Virus record (IMG/VR): IMGVR_UViG_3300044701_004917 | Coordinates: 1 to 42,476 of that record | DNA length: 42,476 bases | Strand: one strand, 5' to 3' | DNA from: a virus | Shown: in pieces, positions 990 through 28,745 of the stretch | Layout: every line of letters begins with the position of its first letter | How positions within the stretch are numbered: the stretch's first letter is position 1 | The notes under the pieces: model-generated | The model's input: only the letters and a program-made list of their open reading frames with translations | What the model was told of the DNA's origin: nothing | Databases searched by the model: none | Made by a program: the position numbers and the translations under genes

Positions 990-3900
990 TTGGTGGCAGA
1001 TTTTCGCCTGCGGGTCACAGCGGAAACGCAGGACGCGGAGCGCAAACTGCGTGCCGTAGACAAGACAGCGGCCGAAGCCACCAAGAACCGCAATATCAAG
1101 GTTGATGTCTCCAGCTTCCAGGACATCAACAAACGCTTCAAAGACATCAACGCAAGTGTCAAAGAAGCTGGCAACAACATCCAGACCTTCTACCGCTTCA
1201 GCAAAAACATCCCCGGCATCGGCGAGCGCGTCCGCGAGGTCGAGGGTCTCGCCAAAGGCGCCGCCAGCCTGGCCCGCTCCGCCCCCGAGTCCGCCGCTGC
1301 TCTACGCGAGAACGCCAAAGCCGGCGCCATCCTCTCCAACTCGTTCGAGGCCGCCGGCGGTGCTGCCGGTCGCCTGATCAACAACCTGGCCAAGGCCGGC
1401 TTCGCCCTCTTCGCCGTCAAGGAAGCGGTCGGCCTTGTCCAAGCAGCCTTCGGTGGCTTCTTCAACGAGACCATCGGCCGCGAGATCAAGCTCCGCGAGA
1501 CGATCCTCAAGACCCAGACCACCCTCGCCTCCACCAACAAGGTCTTCCGCAACGGCACGGAGATCACCGACCCGTACCAAAAGATCGTTGCCCTGACCGG
1601 CGAGGTCGCCAAGCGCATCGACAGCATCCGAGAGCGCTCCATCGCCCTGGCAGGTGTCACTTCCAACGAGGTGATCGAGGTATTCGGGATGGTGGCCTCC
1701 CAGATCGGTCAAATCGGTGGGGGCCTGAAGGACGCCGAAGACCTGGCCATCAACTTCGCCGCCGCCCTCGGCACCTTTGGCATCCCCCTGTACCAGGCAC
1801 GCCAAGAGATCGGCTCGATCCTCCGGGGTGACATCACCACCGATTCCTACCTAGCCAAGGCACTCGGCATCACCAACGAGGACGTCGCCAAAGCCAAGAC
1901 CCAAGCCGGCGGTGTCATCAAATTCCTCGAGGAGCGCCTCGCCGCCTCAGTGGCCGGCCAGCGAATCGCCGCCCAGGGCTTTGCAGGCGTTGTCTCCAAC
2001 ATCCGTGACCTTGGCGAACTGATCAGCCAACGCTTCGGGGCCGGTCTACTCGACCCCATGCTGGGGGGCCTAACCAAAGTCTTCGACTTCCTCTTCAAGA
2101 TCCGCGAAGAGGTCTTCGCCATCAGCGAGGGCCTTGGCCGCGGGCTGGGCTCCCTGCTGAGCACCAACCTCAGCGCCATCAGCGGTGGCTCGGCCCTATT
2201 TGGACAAATAGGCGCCGGTGCCGAAGGGTTTGCCGCCCAGCTCACCGAGAGCGTCAAAAAAGCCTTCGCCTCTCTCCAGGCCAGCGCCAACACGGTCATC
2301 GCGCCGCTGCGCAATCTGTTCGAAGAGATCGCCAAGTCCATCGGCTTGGTGGGCGCTGGCCTGGCCCGCCTGGCTCAGGGCTTCCTCTCGATCCAAATCG
2401 AGAACTTCAAAGCCCTCGTCCAGATCTTCTCCAACCTCAGCGAGGCCGTCACCGCGTTCTCCGCAGTTCTGGGGCAAGTCCTCCGGGCCTACGGCCAACT
2501 GCTGCAGGTTCCCTTCGTCCAGTACCTCAGCCAGATCTCGGCGCAATTCCAGCTGCTTGAAAAGATCGGCGTGATGTCCGTGGTCAAGCTCGGCTTCGCA
2601 GCCGGCGCGTTGATCGCCGCCTGGACGCCGATTGTCACCTTCATCCAGGGCCTCGTCGCCCGGATCGCCGCTCTGCTCGGGGGCCTGGTTATCGCCGTCG
2701 GTGCTGCGTTCACCCGTCTGGGAGCCGTGGTCGCTGCCTTCGCCGCCACGCTCACCGCCACCTACCCAGCAGCCGAAGCTCTCAAACAACAACTCCTCGG
2801 CCTTGCGACCTCGCTCACCACAGCCGGTGCCGCCGCAGACAAGGCTGGGATCTCTGTCACCAAGTTCGGCGGAGCCACGACCGCAGCAGCCCGCGCCGCC
2901 GGCAACGCAATCCTGAGCTTCATCAAGTTCAACCTGATCCTGCTGGCGGTCCAAGTCGCCATCACGGTCCTGGTCGACCTCTTCGGCCGCTTCCAACGCG
3001 CTCAAGAAGAAGCCACCCGCTCCGAGCGCGCCGCCGAAGCACTTCGCCGCCTGCAAACCAAGTACAAAGACGTCGGTGACGCCGCTGACAGCGCCACCAA
3101 ATCAGCCCGCGACTTCGAGCAAGCCCTCGTCGATGCCGAGTACGGCAAGAACCTAGACGCCCTCGAAAAAGTCCGCGAAAAGATCAACCAGATCCGCTAC
3201 GAGCTCAAGCCTGGCATCCAAAGCTGGCGCGAGTTCTGGGATGCGCTCTCCGGCTCCGAGGTCGGGCGCTTCGAAGAGCGCTCCCGCCAAATGCTCCAGG
3301 GCCTCCAGGCCGAAGAGCAGAAGATCAAGGGCCAACTCAGCGCTGTCGACCGCGAGCGCGACAAGCAGCGGATCTCCGAGAACATCCGCCTCGAAGCAGA
3401 CAAACGGGTCAACCTCGAAAAAGAGATCGGGGACCTACGCAAGCAGCAGGACGACCAGCTCTTCCAGCTGCGTCAGCAACGCGCCCAAAAGGAAGTCGAC
3501 ATCTTCCGCGCTGCCGGCGAGCTCCGCATCTTCCAGATGGAGCAGGCCAACAAGAAGCTCATCGAGGGCGAGGAAGGCGCCTCCGCAGCAGCGCTCGACG
3601 CCCTGAACAACTACCTGTCCATCCGCGAGCGAGGCGAGCTGGACATCGAGTCCGGCAAGAAACAGCTGGTGATCGAGGCCGCCAACCTGGAGCGCCAGAT
3701 CTCGGACTACCGCCTCGAGAACGAGAAAAAGATCGCCGAGATCCGCAAGCGCGCCGGCGACTACGAGAAGAACGTCTCGGACTACCGCCGTCAGCTGGCT
3801 GGCCAGAGCCCCGTCGGTGGTGCAACGGGCCTGACTCAGGGCAACACCGGAACCAGCTCCAGCGGTCCCCACTTCCACGTCGCAGGCGCCGCCTCCGAGG

Positions 3901-6068
3901 CCGAAGCCCGCGCCATCTTTGCCCCTGACGTCAATCGCCAACTCACGCTGACCGATAGACCCGGCAGCCCACGTCGCGGTGGCCGCACGCATCAGGGCTA
4001 CGACCTCGCAGGACCCGCCGGCACCCCGCTGAACCTGGCCCAGGGCTACACCCTGCAGAACTTCACCCGCGACCCCAACGGACTCGGCGGCAACTACGCC
4101 ACCATCGCTGGGCCCAAGGGCCAGAGCTACAAGGTCATGCACCTGGCTGACCCGGGCTCGGCCTACAAAGGCCCCGGCATTGCCGTGGCAGCACCACAAG
4201 CTCCGTCCTTCGCGGACGTCGCTGCGCCTGCCGTGGAGAAGTACGCCTCCGCGGTCCGCTCCCTGTCCTCCGCCATGGAGCGCCTCCGCGCACTCCAAGA
4301 GGCCCTCACCAACGCCAAGACTGCTGCTGCCTTCGAGGAAATCGCCAAGGCGGCCTTCCCCAAGATCAACGTCGAGCAGTACAAGGATCAGCTCGTCGAA
4401 GCCCAGACCGCCCTCGCAGCCCTAGCCGCCGCCTCAGGCCAGGCTTACGACCCTGAGGCCCTCAAGCTCTCCGTCGACGAGATCACCAAGCGCAAGATCC
4501 AAGAGCGCGAGATCCAGGAGATCCTCACCAAGGCTGAAGAGCAGCGCAAAGCCGGCAAGCTCTCCGAGGCCGAACTCACCAAGCTCAAGGACGCCCTCAA
4601 AGCCAAACAGGCCGACTACCTCAAGCAGCTCGAAGCCGAGCGCAAGCTCCGCCAGCAGGTCCTGGAGCTCACGCGCCAGCAACAGGCCGTCGAAGACCTC
4701 CGCGCCGCCACCCAAAAGGTGGGCTTCGATCTCCAACGCGCCCGCGTCCAAGGCACAGCCGCAATGGGCGAAGCCTTCGCTAGCGACAACCCCGTACTCC
4801 GCCGCAATGCCGAGGCCGAAGCCCTGATCGCCCAAAAGCGCATCGAGCTCGAAGAGAAGTACGGCAAAAACAGCGCCCAAGCGCAGGAAGAACTGCGCAA
4901 CTTCGCCGCAGCCACCCGCGCTGCTGCCGGAGAACTCGCCGCCATCGACAAAGAAGTCACCGACTTCCAGAAGGCCATGGCCCTAATCCGCGAGAGCGCT
5001 CGCACGATCACCGATGGCTTCAAGGGCTTCGCCAAGACCGTCCTGACCGGGGGCGACATCCAAGAAGCGATGGTCACGATGCTCGAAGGCATCACCGACA
5101 AGTTCTTGAACATGGCGCTCGACGCCGCTTTCAAGCCCCTCGAAGACCTACTGGCTCAGAACTTCAAGGACTTCTTCGGCATCGAGGACCCCACCCAGGC
5201 CCTCCAAGCCGAAAACAACGCAGCACTGACGGCCAACACCGCTGCGTTGAACAGCGTTGCTGCTGCACTTGGCGGCGCAGGCGCTGCTGGTGGCGCCGTG
5301 CCCATCCCCGTCGAGCCCTACAAACCCGGCACCCCTGCCGAAGGCACCAACCCCGAGGCCGCAGCCAACGACGCCGCAGCTCAATCCGCCCAACAAGCCG
5401 CCGAAGCCACCAACCAACAGGCCGACGCCAACAAGAAAGCAGCCGAGAGCGCCAAGGGTGCTGGCCAAGGCATGGCCAACCTCACCAACGTCATCGGCGG
5501 CCTGGCCGGCATTGCTGCCGGGGCTGGTGCCATCGCCGGCGGTGTCGGAATGATGCAGAAGGGCGGCACTTACAACACCCTGATGGGCCTGGCCGGGGTC
5601 TTCGGTGGCATCGGCGGCATCGCCGGTGGCTTCACCGGATTCTTCCGTGCCTCCGGCGGCCCGGTCTCCGCCAACCGCCCCTACATCGTGGGCGAGAAAG
5701 GCCCCGAGCTCTTCTCCCCCACCGGGAACGGCACGATCACTTCCAACCAGGACCTGTTCTCCGCGAACCGCGGTGCCATGGGTGGCGCCTCAGCCGGTGG
5801 GTCCGATCCCTTCTCTCAGAACCGCTCCGCCATCTCCTACAGCCAAGCGGCCATGGAGCGCCGCACCGAGACCGAGCGCGCCCAACGCGCCGTCTCCAAC
5901 CCCAGCCCCATCGACATCCGCTACGAGGCCAGCGTCATCAACAACGTCGAGTACGTCACCACCGACCAATTCCGCAGCGGCCTCAACCAAGCCGCCGAGC
6001 GTGGCCGCGCCCTTGCTTACAACGGCATCCAGAACAGCACAAAAGTCCGTAGCCGCCTCGGAGTCTGA
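990..6068 (+). CDS. Tail tape measure protein with internal M23-like peptidase
   Basis: At 1692 residues it sets tail length and should thread the tube during DNA ejection. It starts at TTG 990 (GTG 993 is possible) with no clear ribosome site. It shows long helical heptad-like stretches, a hydrophobic block around residues 530-670 and a glycine-rich C-terminus ending in the common tape-measure signature GGPVSANRPYIVGEKGPE. Around residues 940-1060 there is a metallopeptidase M23-type domain: GPHFHV (His961, His963), then HQGYDLAGPAGTP (His1001, Asp1005), then VMHL (His1051). All five expected residues are present, but the GPHFH motif precedes HxxxD, the reverse of the usual order, which suggests a circular permutation. 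The stop overlaps the next start as TGATG. Confidence 0.92.
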   Translation: MVADFRLRVTAETQDAERKLRAVDKTAAEATKNRNIKVDVSSFQDINKRFKDINASVKEAGNNIQTFYRFSKNIPGIGERVREVEGLAKGAASLARSAPESAAALRENAKAGAILSNSFEAAGGAAGRLINNLAKAGFALFAVKEAVGLVQAAFGGFFNETIGREIKLRETILKTQTTLASTNKVFRNGTEITDPYQKIVALTGEVAKRIDSIRERSIALAGVTSNEVIEVFGMVASQIGQIGGGLKDAEDLAINFAAALGTFGIPLYQARQEIGSILRGDITTDSYLAKALGITNEDVAKAKTQAGGVIKFLEERLAASVAGQRIAAQGFAGVVSNIRDLGELISQRFGAGLLDPMLGGLTKVFDFLFKIREEVFAISEGLGRGLGSLLSTNLSAISGGSALFGQIGAGAEGFAAQLTESVKKAFASLQASANTVIAPLRNLFEEIAKSIGLVGAGLARLAQGFLSIQIENFKALVQIFSNLSEAVTAFSAVLGQVLRAYGQLLQVPFVQYLSQISAQFQLLEKIGVMSVVKLGFAAGALIAAWTPIVTFIQGLVARIAALLGGLVIAVGAAFTRLGAVVAAFAATLTATYPAAEALKQQLLGLATSLTTAGAAADKAGISVTKFGGATTAAARAAGNAILSFIKFNLILLAVQVAITVLVDLFGRFQRAQEEATRSERAAEALRRLQTKYKDVGDAADSATKSARDFEQALVDAEYGKNLDALEKVREKINQIRYELKPGIQSWREFWDALSGSEVGRFEERSRQMLQGLQAEEQKIKGQLSAVDRERDKQRISENIRLEADKRVNLEKEIGDLRKQQDDQLFQLRQQRAQKEVDIFRAAGELRIFQMEQANKKLIEGEEGASAAALDALNNYLSIRERGELDIESGKKQLVIEAANLERQISDYRLENEKKIAEIRKRAGDYEKNVSDYRRQLAGQSPVGGATGLTQGNTGTSSSGPHFHVAGAASEAEARAIFAPDVNRQLTLTDRPGSPRRGGRTHQGYDLAGPAGTPLNLAQGYTLQNFTRDPNGLGGNYATIAGPKGQSYKVMHLADPGSAYKGPGIAVAAPQAPSFADVAAPAVEKYASAVRSLSSAMERLRALQEALTNAKTAAAFEEIAKAAFPKINVEQYKDQLVEAQTALAALAAASGQAYDPEALKLSVDEITKRKIQEREIQEILTKAEEQRKAGKLSEAELTKLKDALKAKQADYLKQLEAERKLRQQVLELTRQQQAVEDLRAATQKVGFDLQRARVQGTAAMGEAFASDNPVLRRNAEAEALIAQKRIELEEKYGKNSAQAQEELRNFAAATRAAAGELAAIDKEVTDFQKAMALIRESARTITDGFKGFAKTVLTGGDIQEAMVTMLEGITDKFLNMALDAAFKPLEDLLAQNFKDFFGIEDPTQALQAENNAALTANTAALNSVAAALGGAGAAGGAVPIPVEPYKPGTPAEGTNPEAAANDAAAQSAQQAAEATNQQADANKKAAESAKGAGQGMANLTNVIGGLAGIAAGAGAIAGGVGMMQKGGTYNTLMGLAGVFGGIGGIAGGFTGFFRASGGPVSANRPYIVGEKGPELFSPTGNGTITSNQDLFSANRGAMGGASAGGSDPFSQNRSAISYSQAAMERRTETERAQRAVSNPSPIDIRYEASVINNVEYVTTDQFRSGLNQAAERGRALAYNGIQNSTKVRSRLGV

Positions 6069-6541: not shown

Positions 6542-6933
6542 ACCAGACAGCCGCCATCCCCACCTGGAGAAGGTTCATCGGCCTCCCCCACGCCCTCGCC
6601 GCTGACCCCCACCGAGGAGAAGCAGCGGACTGTCTGCTCGTCGCTTTTTCCGTCCTCACCGAGGCTGGCCGCCCCCATCCCGAACCCAACCTGCACTGGT
6701 TCGAACTCGCCCGCACCAGCCGCTGGGACGAATTGCAAACGATCTGGTCTGACCTCACCGAACCCCTGCCCGGCCCCGAGCCCTACGCCGTCACCCTGAT
6801 CAAAAACGGTCCCGCCGGCCTGGGTGTCGGCGTCGTGGTCGAGGACGGCCTGCTGATCACCCACCACCGACGCGGGGTCAGCTGGGTGCCGCTCTCGGCA
6901 CTCAAGCCCCTGAGCTACAGGAGGTTCAAGTGA
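6538..6933 (+). CDS. NlpC/P60-like tail-tip peptidase (lambda gpK-like)
   Basis: A 131-residue protein with a catalytic-type cysteine in ADCLLV (Cys32) at the start of a helix, and a histidine pair in LLITHHRRGVSW (His109/His110). This fits the Cys...His arrangement of NlpC/P60 cysteine peptidases, and the HHRRGV phrase is typical of tail-associated members. It would cleave peptidoglycan or be a structural remnant at the tail tip. It lies between the gpL-like and gpJ-like genes, as K does in lambda. It is short for the family and I cannot place the third catalytic residue with certainty. Confidence 0.68.
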   Translation: MNQTAAIPTWRRFIGLPHALAADPHRGEAADCLLVAFSVLTEAGRPHPEPNLHWFELARTSRWDELQTIWSDLTEPLPGPEPYAVTLIKNGPAGLGVGVVVEDGLLITHHRRGVSWVPLSALKPLSYRRFK

Positions 6934-9900
6934 TGCCTGAAGGTCCACCGCTCCTTCCCTCAGACAGGTACCTGGCCCAACTGCTCGGCCTCACCGAGGA
7001 CGAGTACCGCTACTTCATGGCGGAGGTCCGGGCCAACGCGCTGGAGCAACCCGCCCCCGAGGTCGAGGCCGGCCTGGAGACGCTGATCACGATCTCCATC
7101 GTGGCCACGCTGATCTCCATTGGCCTGACCATCGCCGCCAGCTTCTTCAAGCCCAAGCCGGCCGAACCACCGCGCCTCGCCTCCCGCAACGTCCAAGGCG
7201 ACACGGTCAACAACATCCGCCGCTACGCCCCGCGCTACGGCTTCGACGCTCAGCAGGACATCATCCAGCTCGGGGACACGATCCCCCTTGTCTACGCAAG
7301 GCGCCAGCTGATCGGCGGCACCTACTACGGCGGCATCCGCGTCAATCTGACCCTGCTCTGGTCGCAACTCTGGAGCCTCGGTGGCAGCCAGCTCCTGCGC
7401 GCCATCTTCCTGCTGGCCGAGGGCGAGATCGAGAGCATCGACACCAACGGCTTCGCCATCGGCAACAACTCCATCGGCAGCTACGACCTCGCCAACAGCG
7501 CCGCCAACCAATCCGGCTCGCGCATCACGATCTACTTCCGCCCGAACGGCGGGCGGATCCAATCGACCGACCGCATCGCAGGCCGCAGCGGCCTGGCCGA
7601 CCCTGCCAATGCCGTCAACTCCGGCGCTCTGGATGTGTACCAGCTGCGCTCGATCAACGGTGACTACAAGTCCGACTTCTCCTACTCCACCAAACCCAGC
7701 ACCCAAACGACATTTGGCCTGTACAGCCCCATCGGCAACAACCTCGGGCTGCGCCTCAATCCGCAGGTCCGCCCCAAAGTCCAAGCCCAGCTCAAAAAGA
7801 AGAACAACGACGGTGATGCCGAGGTCGTCTGCGTTCTCGACATCACGGCCGACACCCTGCGCCAAAAGCAGAACGCCTTCTTCTCCAGCCGCAGCGGCCT
7901 GATCTCCGGCTCGGTCTCGACGATTGGCGACACCTGCACCTACCGCCTCGACGCCAGCTCCGACGCCAACACCACCTTCACAGCCAGCTCTGGCGGCGAA
8001 ACCCACAACGAGAAATGCGCTGACGTTGCCGCCACCGTCTCCGGCCGCCAGCGCACCTGGGACGACGCGATCACCGTCGGTGACATGTACCGGATCGGAT
8101 CGGCCCTCGCGATCTGCACTGCCCGCAACCCGTCCGACGACATCTTCAACAGCGACGCGGACTTCCTCCCCCTCGGGGGCGGCACCAGCATCGAAGCCAC
8201 CTTCACCGTGGTCCGCGCCGGTCAATCCGACTTCACCACCACCGCGGCAATCACTGCAGACGGCAAATCCGGAACTGCCCGCAAGACCGCCACCAACGGC
8301 AGCCACATTTTCCGCGTCGCGTTGGGGGACGTCTCGACAATGCGCGCCTGCCGTGTCCTCGAGATCGGCATCCGCTCCGGCCTCGGGGTTCGCATCAGTG
8401 GCCTTTGCAACTTCCGCGACACCCTCACCTACGACGAGACCGACGGAAAAGCCTGTTACAACAAGGAAGGCAACACCATCAGCAGCGGCAGCGTCCTCAA
8501 GGTCCAGCAGTACGCCAGCGGCTCGATGTCCTCCTCGGAGGAGCGCTACAGCTTCTTCCGCCTCTACTACCGCGAGTCCGGGACCAGCAACGAGTTCACG
8601 ATGCTCCCCCAGTGCTTCGGGGTCCGCAGCATCACCCAGCAAAGCGTCTTCAACTACCTGCGCATCCAAATGCCGCAGAACAAGCGCTGGGAATTCCGCT
8701 TCGAACCCCTCAGCGGCTGGGAGATCCGCAACAACATTGCGGTCGGCAACCTCGAAATCCTCGACAGCCGCATCTCCACGGTCCGCACGGTCGACGACGG
8801 CAACGGCGTCTACATCACCTTCAACGGTGAGCAGGTCGTCCGCTCCATCGAGACCTTCAAGCTGACCAGCGTCGAGCGCAGTACCTCGATGGGCATGCCC
8901 TTCACCGACGGGAACAGCTACGTCGATGCCTGGGGCAAGCTCGCCGAAACCTTCGTCTACGAAGAAGTTGTCAGCAGCGCGGGCAGCAACGCCGAGCACG
9001 AGATCGTCTACGTCAACGAGATCGCCGAAAACCCCGTTGTCCCCACCTACGACAACCTGGCCATCGTCGGCATCAACGCCCGCTCCTCCGTGGAGTGGCA
9101 GAACTTCAGCCAGTTCTCCGCCTACGTCACCGGTGGCCTTAAGGTCCGCCGCCTCACCGAGAACGACACCCTCGGGGCGTCCCACCTGTTCCCCGACATC
9201 CTGCGGGACCTGCTCCTCTCCACCCGCTACGGCTCAGGCGATTCGATCACCGAAGACCAGATCGACACCGACGCCTTCCGCTACGCCGCCCAGTGGTGCG
9301 AGCAGCGCCGCTACTACTTCGACGGCGCCTTGGTTGGCCGCCAAAACCTGCGGGTCTGGGCCGCCGACGTCGCTGCCTACAGCCTTCTGGAGTTCACGAT
9401 CAAGGACGGCAAGTTCTCCCTGAGCCCCGCGCTGCGCTTCCCCTCCGAGGGCGCCGTCCCGATCAAAGCCCTGTTCACCGCGGGCAACATCGTCGAGGAC
9501 ACCTTCCGATTGGAGTACATGGACGAGGCAGACCGCCTCCCCATCCAAGCCTCCATCAAATGGAGAGAAGAGCGCGCCAGCAACGACCCCACCAACCCTG
9601 GCCTCTTCCCCACCGAGCGCGAATTCCTGATCCGCGAAGCCTCCGGCTCCGCCACCGACACCATCGAGTCCTACGACCTCTCGGACTCAGTCACCAACAA
9701 GGCCCAGGCCGTCGACTTCGGCAAGTACGTGCTGCGCATGCGGCGGGTGATCACGCACTCGGTCAAATTCCAGACCACCCCCGATGGCATCACCGCCGGC
9801 CTGGCCCCAGGCGATTTCATCCGCGTGGCGATGGACGTCACCCACTACGACGAGTTCAACAACGGCATCGTCACCTCGGATGGCGTGCTGGTGAGCACCA

Positions 9901-10187
9901 CACCCCTGGCCGACGGTGCTCATGACGTGATCGCCTGGAGCCGGGGCTCAACTCCGCCGCAGGACACTCAGCTCGTCGTCAACAACGGCTTCGCCACCCC
10001 GAAGAACATCATCTTTGCCGTCAAACGAGTGGACCGCCAGGTCCGCACCTACAAGGTGGAATCCATCAGCCTCACCGAGAACGGTGCCATCGACATCGAG
10101 GCCGTCCACTTCCCGACCGAAGCAAACGGCACTCTTACCCTGACTAAGGACTGGGACGACCCTGCGGCCTGGGTCATAAGCGAATGA
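6933..10187 (+). CDS. Central tail-tip / host-specificity protein (gpJ-like)
   Basis: About 1084 residues. ATG 6933 is preferred over GTG 6930 because AGGAGG at 6919-6924 is 8 bases away. Near residues 45-72 there is a hydrophobic segment (ITISIVATLISIGLTIAASF) followed by KPKPAEPP, an arrangement seen at the N-terminus of many gpJ-like tail hub proteins. The middle is beta-rich. Its place at the end of the tape-measure/L/K/J order supports the baseplate hub role, contacting the cell surface and closing the tail. A 741-residue open frame on the opposite strand is a GC-driven shadow. Confidence 0.8.
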   Translation: MPEGPPLLPSDRYLAQLLGLTEDEYRYFMAEVRANALEQPAPEVEAGLETLITISIVATLISIGLTIAASFFKPKPAEPPRLASRNVQGDTVNNIRRYAPRYGFDAQQDIIQLGDTIPLVYARRQLIGGTYYGGIRVNLTLLWSQLWSLGGSQLLRAIFLLAEGEIESIDTNGFAIGNNSIGSYDLANSAANQSGSRITIYFRPNGGRIQSTDRIAGRSGLADPANAVNSGALDVYQLRSINGDYKSDFSYSTKPSTQTTFGLYSPIGNNLGLRLNPQVRPKVQAQLKKKNNDGDAEVVCVLDITADTLRQKQNAFFSSRSGLISGSVSTIGDTCTYRLDASSDANTTFTASSGGETHNEKCADVAATVSGRQRTWDDAITVGDMYRIGSALAICTARNPSDDIFNSDADFLPLGGGTSIEATFTVVRAGQSDFTTTAAITADGKSGTARKTATNGSHIFRVALGDVSTMRACRVLEIGIRSGLGVRISGLCNFRDTLTYDETDGKACYNKEGNTISSGSVLKVQQYASGSMSSSEERYSFFRLYYRESGTSNEFTMLPQCFGVRSITQQSVFNYLRIQMPQNKRWEFRFEPLSGWEIRNNIAVGNLEILDSRISTVRTVDDGNGVYITFNGEQVVRSIETFKLTSVERSTSMGMPFTDGNSYVDAWGKLAETFVYEEVVSSAGSNAEHEIVYVNEIAENPVVPTYDNLAIVGINARSSVEWQNFSQFSAYVTGGLKVRRLTENDTLGASHLFPDILRDLLLSTRYGSGDSITEDQIDTDAFRYAAQWCEQRRYYFDGALVGRQNLRVWAADVAAYSLLEFTIKDGKFSLSPALRFPSEGAVPIKALFTAGNIVEDTFRLEYMDEADRLPIQASIKWREERASNDPTNPGLFPTEREFLIREASGSATDTIESYDLSDSVTNKAQAVDFGKYVLRMRRVITHSVKFQTTPDGITAGLAPGDFIRVAMDVTHYDEFNNGIVTSDGVLVSTTPLADGAHDVIAWSRGSTPPQDTQLVVNNGFATPKNIIFAVKRVDRQVRTYKVESISLTENGAIDIEAVHFPTEANGTLTLTKDWDDPAAWVISE

Positions 10188-27710: not shown

Positions 27711-28745
27711 ATGCCCGAGCTCGAAGCGGCCAACGCCCGCCTCAAGGCAGGGAAGCTCCGGTGCTCCATCCAACTGCGCGGCCGGGTCTACACGCTTGTG
27801 GCGACCCTTCCCACACGGGAGGGCACCGGGCGGAAACAGCAGCGCATCCCCTTACCCGAGGCCGACCTTTTTGAGGCCGAACGCCGCGCCGTGGTTCTTG
27901 GCGAGCAGCTCCGCACAGACACATTCACCTGGGAAGCCTGGGACACCCCCCAGAGCCCTGAGGCGATCACCGTGGCCGACTTCGTCAAAGCCGCCCAGGC
28001 CCTCCACGCCTCCAAGTACCGCAAGGACCCCGAGCGCGGCAACAACGCTTGGTCCAAGAAATGGGCTCCCGCCCTTCGCAAGCTCCCGCCCTCGGGGGCC
28101 ATCACCGAGGCCAGCCTGCTCCGGGTCATCCGCACAATGCCCGCCGGCAGCGCCTCTCGCCGGGACCAGGGCAACCTCCTCACCCAGGTGGCCAAGTCCC
28201 TGGGCCTAGACACCAGCGCCCTCCTCGAAGCCTGCCGCGGCTACGGCGTCGACAAGCTCACCGAGCGCGACATCCCCACCGACGAGGCCATCGAAGCTGC
28301 CATCAAGCGCATCCCGCTGCCCCACTGGCGCTGGACCTTCGGCATGTGCGCGGCATATGGGCTGCGCCCCCACGAGTGCGCTGAGCTGACCTGGCTCGAG
28401 GACGACTGGATCGAGGTCCACGACAAGACGAAAACCGGCGCTCGCCGCGTCACCCCATGTCCCAGCGCCTGGATCAAGCGTTTTGATCTGCGTGACCTCC
28501 CGCGCCCCACGCAAAGCGCCCGCACCCTGACCAAGGTCTTCAACGACGCCCTGGACCGGGCCCAGGTGACCATCAAGCCCTACAACCTCCGCCACGCCTA
28601 CGCCCTGCGCCTGCTGTCCAAAGGCGTCTCCGCCGACCTCGGTGCCCGCCTGATGGGCCACAGCCTCCAGGTCCACCAGTCCACCTACCAGCGATGGATC
28701 GAGGGCGACCGGATTCAGAAAGCGATGCGCGGCATTTCGCTTTAG
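27711..28745 (+). CDS. int: Tyrosine recombinase (integrase)
   Basis: A 344-residue protein from ATG 27711. It has an N-terminal arm-binding part, a core-binding helix domain (about residues 85-180) and a catalytic domain with GLRPHE (Arg219), a TKTGARR lysine region, YNLRHAYALRL, LMGHS and the nucleophile in STYQRW (Tyr326). The first histidine of the usual HxxR motif is Tyr here. It inserts the phage at the 3' end of a host tRNA-Pro gene, as judged from the adjacent attP. Arm-type repeats end just before its start, suggesting autoregulation. The next gene encodes an excisionase-like protein. Confidence 0.92.
   Translation: MPELEAANARLKAGKLRCSIQLRGRVYTLVATLPTREGTGRKQQRIPLPEADLFEAERRAVVLGEQLRTDTFTWEAWDTPQSPEAITVADFVKAAQALHASKYRKDPERGNNAWSKKWAPALRKLPPSGAITEASLLRVIRTMPAGSASRRDQGNLLTQVAKSLGLDTSALLEACRGYGVDKLTERDIPTDEAIEAAIKRIPLPHWRWTFGMCAAYGLRPHECAELTWLEDDWIEVHDKTKTGARRVTPCPSAWIKRFDLRDLPRPTQSARTLTKVFNDALDRAQVTIKPYNLRHAYALRLLSKGVSADLGARLMGHSLQVHQSTYQRWIEGDRIQKAMRGISL

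Follow-up and report, generated by a model that had tools for sequence, protein, structure and literature searches.

The tape measure locus

The stretch of DNA analyzed here, which we call the window, is a virus record of 42,476 bases whose tail module is siphovirus-like; it also encodes a primase-polymerase, a DNA polymerase of family A and an integrase-like protein. The gene at positions 990 to 6068 specifies a long, helix-rich protein within the tail module, with distal tail genes downstream, and its product was matched to the tail tape measure class of PHROG (E value of 2.1e-7); the NCBIfam search of the same protein returned nothing relevant. The N-terminal region of this tape measure protein (TMP) is similar to the tape measures of Aphanizomenon, Nodularia and Planktothrix phages, and the three relatives read from these phages were all without the M23 motifs described below. 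Features of the window and of related proteins are collected in Table 1.

Table 1. Features of the TMP locus and of related carrier proteins, with residues numbered from the TTG at position 990
Feature	Position	Strand	Description
TMP gene	990..6068	+	1692 aa, TTG start
Charged helix-rich flank before domain, residues 860-940	3567..3809	+	Composition only: 37% charged, 7% Gly+Pro
Predicted permuted M23 domain, about residues 944-1058	3819..4163	+	Profile match 951-1056; model with confident core
First segment, corresponding to C-terminal part of normal M23 (G..GNTG...GPHFHV)	3819..3884	+	Profile 5-35 on C-terminal part of solved M23 chains
HxH motif	3870..3878	+	His961 nt 3870-3872, His963 nt 3876-3878; both invariant in 23-sequence alignment
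Linker joining former C and N termini	3879..3989	+	37 residues; helix predicted at model residues 38-43
Second segment, corresponding to N-terminal part of normal M23 (HxGxD to HL)	3990..4157	+	Profile 68-129 on N-terminal part of solved M23 chains
HxxxD zinc motif	3990..4004	+	His1001 nt 3990-3992, Asp1005 nt 4002-4004; invariant in 23-sequence alignment
His1051	4140..4142	+	By homology, the second catalytic His; lies 50 residues past His1001; invariant
Helix-rich flank after domain, residues 1075-1155	4212..4454	+	Composition only: 64% helix formers, 5% Gly+Pro
J-like tail protein, downstream	6930..10187	+	PHROG 27845 E 6.4e-30, PHROG 31 E 4e-16
Integrase-like gene	27711..28745	+	At Pfam cut-off
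Synechococcus podovirus internal core proteins ending in permuted M23 fold	L346:778-3780 (P60 gp33), L350:189-3182, L351:882-3845
gpD-type baseplate hub (PF05954)	L043:3008-4399		Ends shortly past catalytic HL of permuted M23
Cyanomyovirus hubs	L010:1893-4949, L006:4405-7371		Apparently degenerate ordinary M23-like copy, permuted M23, C-terminal PF18013
R3177 tape measure	L263:2494-6804		HLD replaces HLH
Mcat20 tape measure	L264:1673-6055		HLD replaces HLH

Motif order in the TMP

Direct reading of the TMP placed all five residues of an M23-type active site where the first-pass annotation had put them, in the order GPHFH (His961 and His963), HQGYD (His1001 and Asp1005) and VMHL (His1051), with exactly 40 residues, given there as about 40, separating His961 from His1001. 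This order, HxH ... HxxxD ... HL, is not the canonical one, which runs HxxxD ... HL ... HxH. The protein contains only four His in its 1692 residues, all of them part of the motif set, as well as one HxxxD and a single HxH, so that the canonical HxH past residue 1060 which had been named as evidence against a permutation is absent. The further claim that the sequence around GPHFH is exactly the usual domain end held nearly, not to the residue: in GNTG-TSSS-GPHFH the spacing between TG and GP is one residue longer than in the usual ending GSTG-RST-GP, where it is three. None of the six residues before His1001 is a Tyr, and loop lengths differ from those of LytM and lysostaphin; a review of M23 peptidases (PMC9662197) gives an oxyanion Tyr for LytM, lysostaphin and LasA.

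Taken alone, the GPHxH pattern is unremarkable, with one match in the DNA of the window and at least one in 47 of 100 dinucleotide shuffles, and the significance of the finding therefore rests on the ordered set, which 100,000 composition-preserving shuffles of the TMP never produced, and on the relatives. The domain is encoded in five viral contigs with 88-100% identity, four of which differ from the window, and assembly error is thereby excluded. When the TMP was compared with that of L076, the domain was the most conserved part (85% identity, versus 57% and 50% in the flanks), and its dN/dS of 0.11 indicated strong purifying selection; the comparison with L005 probably reaches the contig end, and its C-terminal part was disregarded.

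Profile matches to the M23 fold

A profile of 19 other permuted domains, with no tape measure sequence among its members, matched TMP residues 951-1056 collinearly at 49.5 bits, the best of 1000 shuffles reaching 9.5 bits. The 23-sequence permuted alignment, which includes the window and in which all five active-site residues are invariant, gave a profile that matched 35 distinct PDB sequences at an E value of at most 1, the top ones being nearly all M23 by name. In the five PDB alignments read, the pieces of this profile were swapped and lay 0 to about 12 residues apart on the solved chain; in 6muk, for example, chain residues 257-320 aligned with profile positions 68-129, followed by chain residues 320-350 with profile positions 5-35. 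Since the pieces nearly abut on solved M23 chains, the new ends would lie at one turn of the ordinary M23 fold; linkers of 35-53 residues connect the old ends in the permuted members.

The Pfam model PF01551 matched eight of the 10 permuted relatives scanned, with L070 and L076 giving no match, and six of the 10 exceeded its curated cut-off (L057, L063, L084, L136, L038 and L109). The best stretch was the first one, falling on model positions 65-94, with E values down to 2.7e-11. When halves were scored apart, the first half fell on positions 65-89 and the second half on positions 2-56 in four of five members; the halves of the window domain had no Pfam match under this treatment, and the complete window TMP reached an E value of 0.099 and 13.3 bits, below the curated cut-off of 28.7.

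Predicted structures

AlphaFold models were obtained for the window domain (pLDDT 80.5, pTM 0.76) and for the relative L084 (pLDDT 86.2, pTM 0.81). The window model aligned with lysostaphin over 81 residues (Z 5.4, rmsd 2.7), with model residues 43-132 on chain residues 253-339, and the values for the L084 model were similar (Z 5.6, rmsd 2.9, 84 aligned residues), the first 11 rows of its structural search being all M23/LytM chains; Z values near 5 are modest. In both models the sequential aligner followed lysostaphin or LytM over a stretch that begins ahead of HxxxD and breaks off shortly beyond the catalytic His, the match of L084 on LytM ending at LytM residue 271, ahead of its HxH, and stopping there is what a permutant must give. 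Foldseek found no match in the PDB at an E value of 0.001 for either model, which is expected for a permuted chain, though still weak. The prediction thus supports an M23 beta fold for the window domain over the nonswapped stretch alignable to lysostaphin and LytM, and the simplest reading of the first-pass annotation, a circular permutation that keeps the active-site residues, is borne out by the half-by-half profile matches, the two predicted structures, the partial structural alignment and the many independent relatives of the same order, which occur in unrelated phages.

Relatives and their carrier proteins

The first distant match was cyanophage S-TIM54, in which the motif order is permuted, as it is in S-TIM66 and S-TIM5. 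IMG/VR was then scanned for GPHxH followed by HxGxD 105-135 bases on, one scan per Gly codon, which returned 40, 49, 43 and 24 stretches, 156 in all. Chance readings and ordinary M23 domains were sorted out by eye and with a profile tally, leaving 37 permuted M23 domains, the window group included (5 with GGC, 18 with GGT, 14 with GGA and none among the 24 GGG stretches). Three of the 37 (L088, L113 and L125) look permuted but are truncated by contig ends and were not aligned; the retained set had 26 distinct domains, of which 23 came from contigs and three from cultured cyanophages. The discarded stretches comprised ordinary M23 domains with a chance upstream GPHDH (L015, L017, L030, L031, L047, L062, L064, L066, L072, L082, L092, L099, L100, L101 and L102) and off-frame readings in GC-rich DNA (L018, L051, L124, L127, L129 and others). 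Scanning genome contigs with the window domain yielded no relative among 77 pattern stretches, and a scan of viral contigs with L070 recovered only its own contig. A genome scan with one Gly codon gave no permuted domain in 54 in-frame motif matches among the matches listed. A single one of these, L178, got through the automatic filter, and it proved to be a protein from a Ruminiclostridium metagenome-assembled genome with two ordinary M23 domains in tandem; a tandem pair of this kind could give rise to a permutant.

The same motif order in other tape measures, which had been proposed as a check, was found in Acinetobacter and Moraxella phages. The search with L135 returned 30 phage records (24 from Acinetobacter and six from Moraxella), 27 of which cover 80% or more of the query at a single location, and relatives of the Acinetobacter type were encoded in 140 of 142 IMG/VR stretches. 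Among BFVD models, four matches had a probability of 1.00, namely, the internal virion protein of Synechococcus phage P60, S-TIM5, an uncultured tape measure fragment and one other protein.

The carriers are proteins of the phage tail or of DNA ejection. Tape measures carry the domain in the window, L070 (classed as such by likeness to the window type only), L135 and the Acinetobacter and Moraxella phages. Hubs of approximately 1000 residues with a PF18013 tail lysozyme carry it in S-TIM54, S-TIM66, L058, L136, L119 and L123, and a gpD-type baseplate hub is listed in Table 1. A degenerate M23-like copy lies upstream of the permuted domain in at least one hub, that of S-TIM66; in the hub relative P0004, residues 450-484 of an extra degenerate copy match profile positions 45-79. 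What appears to be such a copy is noted for two cyanomyovirus hubs in Table 1. Among the internal core proteins of Synechococcus podoviruses, P60 gp33 ends in the permuted arrangement, but HLD replaces HxH there and the His of HxGxD is missing, and the DSL-LC07 and S-CBP1 core proteins are the same (HLD and SxGxD). The last zinc ligand is also changed in the tape measures of R3177 and Mcat20, and HxD was present in 82 of the 83 motif matches tallied, the remaining one being of the L070 type.

Discussion

The window domain shares with M23B peptidases (lysostaphin, LytM and ShyA/MepM; PF01551) the five active-site residues, the strand order within each half and the GxTGxSxGPHxH ending, and it differs from them in that its HxH half precedes its HxxxD half and a linker connects the old ends. 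The distance from the His of HxxxD, which we take to be His210 in LytM and His279 in lysostaphin, to the catalytic His of HL is likewise 50 residues in both. In the accessible text of PMC9662197, that catalytic His is LytM His260 and lysostaphin His329, and the InterPro M23 domain is defined from Hx3D to HxH. Permuted proteins are therefore matched in pieces or missed. Peptidoglycan-cutting M23 domains on tail or ejection proteins are otherwise represented by Thermus phages P74-26/P23-45, EnpA of an Enterococcus prophage and the L015 group; the motif order is normal in the L015 group, where it was read directly, and presumably also in the Thermus phages, whose match covers the HxxxD half only, and in EnpA. 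The S-TIM54, S-TIM66, S-TIM61 and S-TIM5 hubs have the same permutation and breakpoint as the window (the order was read in S-TIM54, S-TIM66 and S-TIM5 and taken from coverage in S-TIM61), whereas the carrier is another protein of approximately 1000 residues, with a C-terminal PF18013 in S-TIM54 and S-TIM66. In the Acinetobacter (R3177 type) and Moraxella (Mcat20) phages, the same permutation lies inside a tape measure, but one of the TMP_3 family (PF20155), which was not found in the window TMP, and with HxD for HxH. The permuted NlpC/P60 peptidases (YaeF/G6R and LRAT groups) show that a wall-peptidase fold can be circularly permuted in nature, according to the accessible text of PMC6403190, and serve as precedent only, being cysteine peptidases of another fold.

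A description of permuted M23 was not found among the open-access papers listed for permutation together with M23, LytM, lysostaphin, peptidoglycan hydrolases, tape measures or endolysins, some of which apply "circularly permuted" to genome ends. In their accessible text, the string "permut" does not occur in the review PMC9662197, and PMC6403190 mentions permutation for NlpC/P60 relatives only.

We consider it likely that TMP residues from about 944 to about 1058 form a permuted M23 domain, with its former ends joined by the linker and a putative zinc site, that cuts the cell wall at ejection. The new break in the chain would fall at the turn that separates two strands, one with the catalytic His-Leu at its end and the other leading to GxTG...HxH, and the former ends would be bridged by the linker of approximately 37 residues. 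By analogy with LytM, zinc binding and the activation of water would most likely fall to the four His and the Asp. In view of what is known of virion lysins, its likely role would be to cleave peptidoglycan locally at ejection. The TMP would exit the tail before the DNA does. The domain, most likely a tail-borne zinc endopeptidase, would then cut peptide cross-links where the channel crosses the thin wall of a Gram-negative cell, D-Ala-diaminopimelate links being the natural guess for its substrate in a Gram-negative host. This role in wall penetration is inferred from the tail-protein setting and from the second lysozyme domain of some carriers.

The permuted fold could also be real and yet no longer an enzyme, acting as a structural or peptidoglycan-binding module in the manner of EnvC and NlpD. 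Relatives of M23 without enzyme activity are known, as the accessible text of PMC9662197 indicates, and the replaced ligands of the cyanopodovirus core proteins, together with the HxD of nearly all Acinetobacter and Moraxella tape measure matches, point the same way; the podovirus domains are probably without enzyme activity, and some branches with changed zinc ligands may have left catalysis. For the window itself we judge this unlikely, given that the five residues are invariant in the alignment of which it is part and that the motif His are the only ones its TMP has. Quite improbable is an active site completed in trans, with the HxH half of one TMP copy serving the HxxxD half of a neighboring copy: each phage tail holds several copies of its tape measure protein, which would permit it, but a single chain is predicted as a compact domain, both for the window and for L084, and a linker of 37 residues is ample to close the ring.

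That the motifs are halves remaining from a tandem pair of M23 domains that has decayed, with neither fold nor function, has in its favor that tandem duplication is the usual route to circular permutation and that hub relatives such as P0004 retain a degenerate upstream copy; the conservation of order, breakpoint and residues in many phages, the strong purifying selection and the confident predicted fold make it very improbable indeed. Chance motif matches or an assembly artefact, suggested by the expectation of GPHxH alone in about half of shuffled windows, are refuted by the shuffles of the ordered set, the relatives in other contigs and the independent profile match.

As to the origin of the permuted domain, the breakpoint is the same in the window, in cyanomyovirus and gpD-like hubs and in Acinetobacter and Moraxella tape measures, and in both the window and R3177 the domain is flanked by helix-rich stretches poor in Gly and Pro. 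With its new ends adjacent, the domain might loop out from a single site on a long helical rod, and adjacent ends would probably favor insertion in the middle of a tape measure or hub, a suggestion that we make tentatively; permutation is not required for insertion, since long phage proteins can contain canonical M23 domains as well (the L015 group). The degenerate upstream copy of S-TIM66 fits duplication followed by loss. A profile of the hub linker failed to detect the linker of the window and reached L070 only at an E value of 2; it detected Acinetobacter phage R3177 weakly (E value of 5.7e-4, the best shuffle giving 0.015) and L035 at 9.9e-15. It is possible, though in our estimate somewhat short of an even chance, that a single ancient permutation gave rise to an M23 endopeptidase with its ends meeting at one point, and that this module spread among unrelated siphovirus, myovirus and podovirus ejection proteins because it fits into the middle of a structural rod, with ordinary databases seeing only fragments of it. 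If so, siphovirus tape measures, myovirus hubs and the podovirus internal core would share one module.

The interest of the permuted domain can be seen along several lines: (i) few wall-cutting enzymes of bacteria and phages are as common as the M23 peptidases, whose database definition assumes one motif order, so that with a recurrent natural permutant many virion enzymes may be missed or labeled as fragments; (ii) the permutant offers a clean natural test of how a zinc site survives permutation; (iii) adjacent ends are a possible reason why an enzyme can sit within a tail-length ruler; and (iv) the domain is a lead on wall breaching by phages of cyanobacteria and Acinetobacter. A cyanobacterial host is plausible for the window phage, since the first matches listed for its DNA polymerase are from Pseudanabaena phages (27-28% identity). 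The integrase-like gene makes it possible that the phage is temperate.
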